From an uncultured Clostridia bacterium (GTDB lineage: Bacteria; Bacillota; Clostridia; Oscillospirales; CAG-272): DNA of 64,000 nucleotides. The notes beneath the pieces were generated by a model. The model did no database searches, was not told where the DNA came from, and saw only the letters and a list, made by a program, of their open reading frames with translations. The position numbers were made by a program, and so were the translations under genes. Every line of letters starts with the position of its first letter. The stretch's first letter is position 1. This document shows, in pieces, positions 12,643 to 15,765 of the stretch. The DNA lies in NCBI GenBank assembly GCA_947630625.1, contig CANRIL010000004.1, positions 1 through 64,000 on the forward strand, given 5' to 3'.

Positions 12643-13080
12643 TCAGATCATATAATTGTCAATGTTTCTCGCATTTTGTTGGTCGATAATATCCTGCAAA
12701 GTAATTCCGTCAAAATATTCGTTTATCACCTTGTATAATCCCTGCCACACGGGAAGTGTCGGACATTCGGCACTGCGTTTGCATTCTTCCGGATTTTTTC
12801 CGACACACGCTACCGGGGCAAAATCTCCCTCTGTCAACCGCAAAATCTCGCCTACCGTATACTTGCCGGGTTCTTTCACGAGCATATATCCGCCTTGTTT
12901 TCCGCGGTTTGTACGCAAAAGGTCTGATCTGTTTAAGATAGGTACGATCTGTTCAAGATATTTCTTTGAGATGTCCTGCCGCTTGGCAATGTCTTTTAAT
13001 GCAATATATCCCTCTTTCCGATGCTCGGCAAGATCAATAAGCATCCGAAGCGCATAGCGGCCTTTTGTTGATATTTTCAT
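12643..13080 (-). CDS. Rrf2-family regulator with candidate Fe-S cysteines (IscR/CymR type)
   Basis: Small winged-helix repressor. The N-terminal half (MKISTKGRYALRML, DIAKRQDISKKYLEQI, RTNRGKQGGYML) is the standard Rrf2 DNA-binding domain. The C-terminal half carries Cys92, Cys100 and Cys106, the pattern of 2Fe-2S ligands in IscR; Bacillus CymR lacks these. It sits between cysK and the LysR-metY pair, which suggests control of cysteine synthesis by Fe-S or sulfur status. Its own promoter (TTGAAA-17-TATTAT) overlaps an ACCTA...TAGGT repeat, suggesting autoregulation. Naming it iscR or cymR would go beyond the evidence. Confidence 0.9.
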   Translation of the reverse strand: MKISTKGRYALRMLIDLAEHRKEGYIALKDIAKRQDISKKYLEQIVPILNRSDLLRTNRGKQGGYMLVKEPGKYTVGEILRLTEGDFAPVACVGKNPEECKRSAECPTLPVWQGLYKVINEYFDGITLQDIIDQQNARNIDNYMI

Positions 13081-14175: not shown

Positions 14176-14202
14176 TACCATATCACACATATAGGCTTAA
14201 TC

Positions 14203-14257
14203 TATAACTCGGCATTGACTTTCCGTATTAGACAGAAGGCAGACGCCGAGTTATAAT
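14203..14257 (+). promoter_or_regulatory. metY promoter inside an 11-bp perfect inverted repeat
   Basis: TATAACTCGGC (14203-14213) and GCCGAGTTATA (14245-14255) are perfect inverted arms 31 bases apart. The right arm overlaps the -10 TATAAT (14252-14257). The -35 is probably TAGACA (14229-14234), with 17-base spacing. The arms may be regulator sites, for example for the adjacent LysR protein. Confidence 0.65.
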
Positions 14258-14287: not shown

Positions 14288-14368
14288 GTGAGAAAAGAAT
14301 CCTGTCGGAGGAATATTTCCTGCATTTCATTTTCCGTGCTGCTGAGCCTTGATCGAATGTGCGGATGA
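14288..14368 (+). CDS. Cysteine-containing leader peptide upstream of metY
   Basis: A 26-residue ORF starting GTG, with AAGGAG nine bases upstream and a TGA end. The peptide begins MRKESCRRNISC and ends LSLDRMCG. It has three Cys codons, two near the start and one next to the stop. It is too short for the ORF track. It lies between the metY promoter and metY, the position of an attenuator peptide. Cys-rich leader peptides that sense cysteinyl-tRNA are known upstream of sulfur genes in actinobacteria; this one would be an analogous case. A short GCGGCA/TGCCGC hairpin next to the metY Shine-Dalgarno could be its partner. Confidence 0.6.
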   Translation: MRKESCRRNISCISFSVLLSLDRMCG

Positions 14369-14460
14369 GTTCTCTGTCGATCCCAAACATCAACCACGTT
14401 AAAGTTAAAATAAAAATTGAAGCGGCATGACAAGCGGCATTGCCGCAGGAGGATAAAACT

Positions 14461-15765
14461 ATGGGGAACATTCATGATCCTAAGAACTGGAGCTTTGAAA
14501 CCAGACAGTTACATATCGGTCAGGAGAAGGCTGACCCTGCAACCGACGCAAGGGCGGTGCCGATTTACGCGTCCACCTCATTTGTATTTCACAATTCACA
14601 GCACGCGGCAGACAGGTTCGGTCTAAGAGATGCAGGCAACATCTATGGCAGACTGACAAATCCGACACAGGACATTTTTGAGCAGCGTATTGCATCGCTT
14701 GAAGGCGGCACGGCGGCGCTGGCAACCGCCTCCGGTGCAGCGGCGGTCAACTATGCAATCAGCGCGCTTGCGAGAAGCGGCGAACATATCGTTGCGTCTA
14801 AGACAATTTACGGCGGCACATACAATCTGCTGGCGCATACGCTCCCGCTTTCGAGCGGCATCACAACGACTTTTGTCGACCCCGATGAGGACGGCTCCTT
14901 TGAGGCGGCGATCAGGGAAAACACGAAGGCGATCTTCATTGAAACGCTCGGCAACCCGAACTCGAATATCATTGATATTGAAGCTGTCGCCGCTGTGGCT
15001 CACAAGCATGGCATTCCGCTGGTCATTGATTCCACCTTTGCGACCCCGTATCTCATTCGCCCGATCGAATACGGCGCGGATATCGTCGTTCACTCCGCGA
15101 CGAAGTTTATCGGCGGTCACGGAACCGCCATCGGCGGCGTGATCGTGGACGGCGGACATTTTGACTGGAAGGCTTCCGGCAAATATCCGTGGATCTCCGA
15201 GGCGAATCCCAGTTATCACGGCATTTCCTTTGCCGATGCGGTCGGCCCTGCCGCCTTCGTCACATATATCCGCGCAATTTTGCTTCGTGATACGGGCTCG
15301 ACACTTTCACCTTTCCACGCGTTTTTGTTCCTGCAAGGCCTGGAAACCCTCTCCCTGCGTGTAGAGCGTCACGTCGAAAACGCGTTGAAGATCGTGGAAT
15401 ATCTCGATCATCATCCGCAGGTGGAAGCGGTGCATCATCCCTCTCTCGAAAGCGAACCGAGCCACAAGCTGTATCGGAAATACTTCCCGAACGGGGCGGG
15501 ATCAATCTTTACTTTTGAAGTCAAGGGGAACGCTGCGACAGCGCAAAAGTTCATTGACAATCTCGCGATCTTCTCTCTGCTAGCCAACGTCGCCGACGTA
15601 AAGTCTTTGGTGATACATCCGGCCAGCACGACCCATTCGCAGCTTACCGAAGACGAGCTGCTGGATCAGGGCATCAAGCCGAATACCATCCGCCTGTCCA
15701 TCGGCACGGAAGATGTAAAGGATTTGATCGCAGCCATCGACGAAGCGTTCAAGGCAATCGAGTAA
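14461..15765 (+). CDS. metY: O-acetylhomoserine sulfhydrylase
   Basis: Cys/Met-metabolism PLP enzyme that makes homocysteine from O-acetylhomoserine and sulfide. Seen are RAVPIYASTSF, YGRLTNPTQ, ETLGNPNSNI, DSTFATPYL and the PLP lysine motif SATKFIGGHG (Lys215 from the chosen start). The length of 434 residues and the FLQGLETLSLR segment fit MetY better than the shorter MetB/MetC. AGGAGG lies eight bases upstream of 14461, so I reject the track start 7 codons earlier. A leader peptide and a possible attenuating hairpin precede it. With cysK it covers direct sulfhydrylation to both sulfur amino acids. Confidence 0.95.
   Translation: MGNIHDPKNWSFETRQLHIGQEKADPATDARAVPIYASTSFVFHNSQHAADRFGLRDAGNIYGRLTNPTQDIFEQRIASLEGGTAALATASGAAAVNYAISALARSGEHIVASKTIYGGTYNLLAHTLPLSSGITTTFVDPDEDGSFEAAIRENTKAIFIETLGNPNSNIIDIEAVAAVAHKHGIPLVIDSTFATPYLIRPIEYGADIVVHSATKFIGGHGTAIGGVIVDGGHFDWKASGKYPWISEANPSYHGISFADAVGPAAFVTYIRAILLRDTGSTLSPFHAFLFLQGLETLSLRVERHVENALKIVEYLDHHPQVEAVHHPSLESEPSHKLYRKYFPNGAGSIFTFEVKGNAATAQKFIDNLAIFSLLANVADVKSLVIHPASTTHSQLTEDELLDQGIKPNTIRLSIGTEDVKDLIAAIDEAFKAIE

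Follow-up and report, generated by a model that had tools for sequence, protein, structure and literature searches.

A putative leader-peptide family with a CGA-AUG core upstream of metY and other sulfur genes in a clostridial order

The short open reading frame that precedes metY in the 64,000-nt stretch of DNA analysed here (the window, from an uncultured clostridial gut bacterium) belongs to a previously unnamed leader family found upstream of many sulfur genes in its order. As read from the sequences, this family has Arg(CGA)-Met(AUG) as its invariant site, with a Cys codon or UGA next. We give roughly even odds (about 0.5) to the reading that the window ORF is a regulatory uORF, acting by translational attenuation through a ribosome pause at Arg-Met.

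The window leader and its conservation

The layout of the locus is as given in the preliminary description: a 26-codon ORF with a Shine-Dalgarno sequence (SD) and cysteines at codons 6, 12 and 25 lies between promoter and metY, and GCGGCA/TGCCGC sits directly before the metY AGGAGG (Table 1). The leader SD, AAGGAG, is located 8-9 nt 5' of the GTG start codon. Since the promoter is 5' of the leader, the ORF lies within the metY transcript. Gene order in the window is cysK, an Rrf2-family regulator (opposite strand), a LysR-family regulator, leader and metY. The inverted repeat across the promoter spacer is partly retained in relatives having lysR and is probably a DNA operator, 5' of the likely transcript start. 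It should also be noted that the Rrf2-family protein, encoded between cysK and lysR, has three cysteines and equal IscR and CymR scores, and that CCTAC-N5-GTAGG-like palindromes in many metY upstreams of the order could be the site of the Rrf2-family regulator. Among aligned loci, a 12-nt duplication (AAGCGGCATGAC) 5' of the SD stem is present in the window only.

Table 1. Features of the leader-metY locus, in window coordinates
Feature	Position	Strand	Details
Rrf2-family regulator	12643-13080	-	between cysK and lysR
Palindrome TATAGgcttaatCTATAA, candidate LysR-type operator	14190-14207	+	sequence; counterpart in G606 (another order)
Inverted repeat ATAACTCGGC/GCCGAGTTAT	14204-14254		across promoter spacer
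Promoter of leader-metY transcript, TAGACA-17 nt-TATAAT	14229-14257	+	boxes 14229-14234 and 14252-14257; sequence
Leader ORF, peptide MRKESCRRNISCISFSVLLSLDRMCG	14288-14368	+	GTG 14288-14290; 26 codons to 14365; TGA 14366-14368
Possible RNA hairpin, leader codons 11-26	14318-14365	+	consensus fold, 12 sequences
Core motif CGA-ATG-TGC (Arg23-Met24-Cys25), proposed ribosome pause site	14354-14362	+	shared by order-wide leader family
Post-motif segment TGCGGATGAGTTCTCTGTCGA	14360-14380	+	UGCGG could pair with CCGCA at metY SD
Short stem-loop GCGGC-ATT-GCCGC abutting metY SD	14434-14446	+	GCGGCA 14434-14439; TGCCGC 14441-14446
metY SD AGGAGG	14447-14452	+	sequence
metY, O-acetylhomoserine sulfhydrylase, regulated gene	14461-15765	+	ATG at 14461; TIGR01326, E 8e-184

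A genome of the same genus carries the leader before metY with 88% peptide identity, and a second copy (50% identical) before a second metY. Scanning the genome collection gave 11 loci, all from metagenome-assembled genomes of uncultured Clostridia with isolate names starting 'Lapin', and an order-wide profile search added loci from two further families. No gaps are needed in the core to align the 12 distinct metY leaders, and the part conserved among the close loci reads SF(S/C)VLLS.(N/D)RM. Over these 12 metY loci, codons 13-25 had a pN/pS of 0.205, against 0.64 and 3.27 when read in the other frames. The half with Cys6 and Cys12 (codons 2-12) was near-neutral at 0.78. This constraint is not mere recency, because third positions of metY are only 47-88% identical between the same loci. 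Judged by its substitution pattern, the window ORF is a real conserved coding leader with its C-terminal half under purifying selection, in agreement with the earlier suggestion of a regulatory leader ORF whose last codons matter.

Across three families of the order (loci L065-L074), MetY proteins share 92-99% identity. This suggests that leader and metY have recently been exchanged horizontally as a unit between these Clostridia, which are probably from rabbit gut. At L068, L069, L071, L072 and L073, lysR and the operator have apparently been deleted 5' of the leader. At L073 the final lysR codons are joined directly to the -10 box and leader; the leader has thus survived the loss of the LysR regulator. 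Searches of the leader region in the window and 12 related loci gave no Rfam match above the cut-off and revealed neither a riboswitch nor a T-box. A TPP riboswitch does lie near one metY locus (L068:4612-4717), with no relation to the leader.

Cysteine codons and the CGA-AUG core

The preliminary description had proposed a cysteine attenuator, in which the ribosome would stall at Cys codons when Cys-tRNA is scarce, above all at the one adjacent to the stop. Relatives keep the peptide but not its cysteines, each of which becomes Arg in some of them: among the 12 close leaders, residue 6 is Cys, Arg or Pro, residue 12 is Cys or Arg (7:5) and residue 25 is Cys or Arg (10:2). Codons 6 and 12 also sit in the near-neutral half. 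Among 52 leaders of the wider family, the number of cysteines ranges from 0 to 6 and they are mostly non-tandem. Because Cys is lacking from 10 of the 52 and in 15 the codon after RM is UGA instead of Cys, Cys cannot be the general signal, and the last Cys is interchangeable with a UGA stop. Counting of Cys codons as a general rule was thus ruled out by the Cys-to-Arg changes and the Cys-free leaders. Some observations would favour cysteine sensing: each of the 12 closest leaders has at least one Cys, Cys comes after RM in about half of distinct leaders, and a terminator-bearing subgroup has Cys-Cys immediately 5' of RM. Weighed against the substitutions, they leave a cysteine attenuator unlikely.

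The subgroup itself consists of L134, L135, L136, L138 and L139, whose leaders have Cys or Cys-Cys right before Arg-Met-Leu. After the motif comes CUCCCGGG, whose complement lies in the 5' arm of a downstream hairpin; this hairpin is a terminator in three of the five. These loci may be true cysteine-responsive transcription attenuators.

Most close metY orthologues across the order have an SD-led short ORF upstream, ending in RM and a stop codon or in RMC (MTDIFEELVRRNFRFGRM, MTFKLLPQLRANFRFGRM, MNINERAGEIPRRVITGTDRMC and MKINSLLLRKQLNDRM are examples, each followed by a stop). The fixed element in these upstream regions is an in-frame CGA-AUG, and the codon after it is mostly UGY (Cys) or UGA (stop). 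No 7-mer is commoner upstream of metY than CGAATGT, which is present at 37 of 65 loci, compared to a mean of 2.05 and a maximum of 6 in shuffled sequences, and was found in none of 23 control upstreams (paralogues, mostly 45-50% identical). As counting CGA in leaders selected for CGAATG would be circular, we counted Arg codons before the in-frame internal ATG of SD-led short ORFs without requiring CGA, and obtained CGA 34 times, CGC twice, CGT twice and CGG once. No leader combining another Arg codon with ATG-TG was detected in the metY upstreams that lack CGAATGT. There is no set of tandem control codons: 35 of the 52 leaders have one internal Met codon.

RNA pairing and the putative pause

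All 12 close relatives are predicted to form a hairpin in codons 11-26 (94% of cells paired), and in several of them it exceeds synonymous recodings in stability. These features would suit a structured RNA or protein-binding site that is open in frame by chance, with translation irrelevant. However, the hairpin shows no two-sided changes and is not above shuffles in the 12 sequences, core synonymous sites vary freely where amino acids do not, and SD, start codon and frame are retained across very different sequences, making this explanation very unlikely. A leader-internal hairpin as the sole source of conservation was ruled out, as there is no covariation. Pairing of codons 10-12 (UUUCCUGC) with GCAGGAGG at the metY SD was also rejected, being broken by C12R (CGC) in 5 of 12 leaders. 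The stem adjacent to the metY SD is kept in 12 of 12, with four pairs invariant and a two-sided change at the fifth in 2 of 11.

We then compared pairing of the segment from +6 to +26 after CGA with the ribosome-binding site (RBS) of its own locus and with the RBSs of other loci. Mean energies were -8.2 and -6.4 kcal/mol, respectively (38 loci; permutation p 2e-4, z -5.2). Of the control segments, the one upstream of the motif was barely significant (p 0.05) and the others were not (p 0.14 and 0.96). Immediately 5' of the RBS, no own-locus signal was obtained (z -0.3). The complementarity is carried by about 10 of the 38 loci, from different families and with unrelated sequences (L127, GAUCCUCA/UGAGGAUC; L119, GUAAGUACC/GGUACUUAC; L145, GGUAAAAUCC/GGAUUUUACC; L130, CGUACCUC/GAGGUACG). 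Its absence from the other 28 counts against our preferred model.

In the window, the only match is the 5-bp one listed in Table 1 (-8.7 kcal/mol), which competes with the local stem. Folding the window RNA with and without a stalled ribosome gave no clear change in access to the metY SD, and varying the ribosome position in the window group revealed no consistent switch in SD accessibility. Intrinsic terminators lie between leader and gene at L126, L134, L135, L139 and L233, and none was found between leader and metY in the window. At L126, L134, L135 and L139, the 5' arm of the terminator reads as complementary to the post-motif segment.

We propose that a ribosome pausing on CGA-AUG would cover the downstream segment, so that the RBS remains free for translation of the gene; a ribosome running through would let the post-motif segment fold back on the RBS and shut it. 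At loci with intrinsic terminators, this segment would act on termination instead, and the regulatory sign could be opposite. The most likely cause of the pause would be too little charged Met-tRNA for the only conserved Met codon (Met24), with help from the slow CGA codon, which only an inosine tRNA reads, and from the conserved nascent peptide. Since a stall would turn the gene on at RBS-pairing loci, the design fits methionine starvation. A single Met codon would make a weak sensor of starvation, which counts against the model. For the window, we infer the mechanism from the family because folding shows no clear switch there. The earlier idea that the position of the ribosome governs access to the RBS is probably right.

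The selection on the C-terminal ~12 residues, the preferred residues before RM (L-9, R-7, N-5, F-4, R-3, G-1) and the several leaders that end precisely at RM all point towards nascent-chain arrest, as in TnaC, SpeFL or ErmCL. With the C-terminal [LV]LR.NFR.GRM or SF.VLLS.NRM in the exit tunnel, a sulfur metabolite (Met, SAM or Cys) would cause arrest at Arg-Met or the stop, independent of Met-tRNA charging; the strong conservation seen at residues other than Met (NFR.G, VLLS) would agree with such ligand-dependent arrest as well. However, a peptide-only mechanism predicts invariance of Arg and not of its CGA codon, and the NFR.G context is missing from some leaders (...CCRMLCSR, for example). 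Furthermore, because a stall means gene on in the RBS-pairing design, a stall-inducing product would act in the wrong direction. We therefore regard arrest by the peptide as doubtful, and rank it second to Met-tRNA limitation at CGA-AUG.

The disproportionate preference for CGA also bears on a mechanism in which s2C at position 32 of tRNA-Arg(ICG) blocks CGA reading and sulfur supply sets decoding. This modification prevents CGA decoding by that tRNA in E. coli (PMC5372741). The complete relative G348 has tRNA-Arg genes with anticodons ACG, CCG, TCT and CCT; because TCG is absent, CGA is decoded there by tRNA-Arg(ACG) only, and this tRNA has C32. Genes of the PF01171 thiolase/lysidine-synthase family occur in 4 of 4 genomes tested, several per genome (G000, G348, G280 and G251). 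In the window's genome, the two proteins tested hit the TtcA model NF007972 (E ~1e-55), scoring under its curated cutoff; one of these two TtcA-like proteins is encoded on the window's contig (C4:102117-102611). Any action of the TtcA-like proteins on tRNA-Arg(ICG) is putative. The sign would also be wrong at RBS-pairing loci, as plentiful sulfur would stall the ribosome and turn the gene on. Thiolation as the switch thus appears highly improbable, and limitation of charged Met-tRNA at CGA-AUG is our preferred reading.

Reach beyond metY and relation to known leaders

A profile match in G606, a genome of another order, revealed a leader (VKNLFKDLRRNCTVSYHVLLSHNRMC, followed by a stop) upstream of metQ and metN. 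Its promoter, TGGACA-17-TATAAT, has the same geometry as that of the window, and a LysR-type palindrome (TTATAGGTTAAACCTATAA) is present too. We also scanned 107 genomes for the pattern SD-ATG-(24-54 nt)-CGAATGTG with no gene requirement. Besides many scattered matches within genes, the in-frame leader-like matches, as judged from the sequences, comprised the known metY leaders and four new ones, with gene names taken from translations and not from profile searches: L230 and L232 upstream of metQ-metN-metI, and L231 and L233 upstream of sulfonate/nitrate-type ABC transporter operons. The sulfur amino-acid genes downstream of the leaders are thus metY, metQNI and sulfonate-transporter-like operons. 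A class-wide search for the LLSx(N/D)RMC codon pattern matched 26 genomes with few leader-like contexts, of which only the window and G606 were convincing. One partial extra match from a phylum-sample search was judged to be chance, as was most of the weak tail of the first peptide searches, based on genomic context.

The window peptide, the G606 peptide and those of seven relatives had no match in NCBIfam, and the window peptide had none in Pfam. A literature search of open-licence papers found no description of a CGA-AUG leader family.

Cysteine leaders of actinobacteria were later named polycysteine short-ORF attenuators. They precede mycobacterial cys operons and B. longum cbs (PMC1262725), and resemble the present family in that the uORF is short and precedes sulfur amino-acid genes, Cys lies close to the stop and a terminator is often lacking. 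In contrast to them, the leaders described here belong to a clostridial order, have no Cys run and no conserved Cys (absent from 10 of 52), are built around CGA-AUG, and show RBS complementarity in a subset. The window leader is a putative attenuator leader that falls outside the cysteine-run family. Pairing of a leader segment with the target SD is likewise known from the LEU element and other actinobacterial uORF/RBS-pairing leaders, but there the sensor is a run of leucine codons (PMC1262725), of which there are none here.

The MetL leader of C. jejuni metBA is another short ORF before methionine genes with a proposed response to Met-tRNA; it has 20 aa and three Met codons and is restricted to C. 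jejuni, C. coli and C. doylei (PMC3847290). Unlike MetL, the leaders of this family usually have one Met after the start, in the fixed CGA-AUG context. This core is absent from the descriptions of the actinobacterial cysteine leaders (PMC1262725) and of MetL (PMC3847290).

Among arrest-based systems, the erm-type attenuators (ErmCL, ErmBL) resemble our model in that a leader stall would free a sequestered RBS and the C-terminus is conserved. They differ in that the signal here would be metabolic, the predicted stall would act through simple pairing, and this pairing is rewired locus by locus. TnaC-type terminal arrest peptides likewise have conserved C-terminal residues by the stop of a ~20-aa leader; the codon-level preference for CGA and the genes controlled set the present family apart from them.

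With no riboswitch or T-box found before these metY genes, the leader offers a concrete, testable candidate for control of the synthesis and uptake of sulfur amino acids in these gut Clostridia, and simple, repeatedly rewired pairing between segment and RBS makes the mechanism amenable to point mutations. If the model is true, the sensor would be unusual, consisting of one codon pair, CGA-AUG, with an interchangeable Cys or UGA, compared to the runs of the regulated amino acid found elsewhere. More broadly, and as a tentative proposal, order-wide leader peptides of gut Clostridia might control the sulfur regulon by codon-specific pausing at the invariant CGA-AUG, where one slow, inosine-read Arg codon and one Met codon would serve as the sensor, possibly tuned by sulfur-dependent tRNA thiolation.
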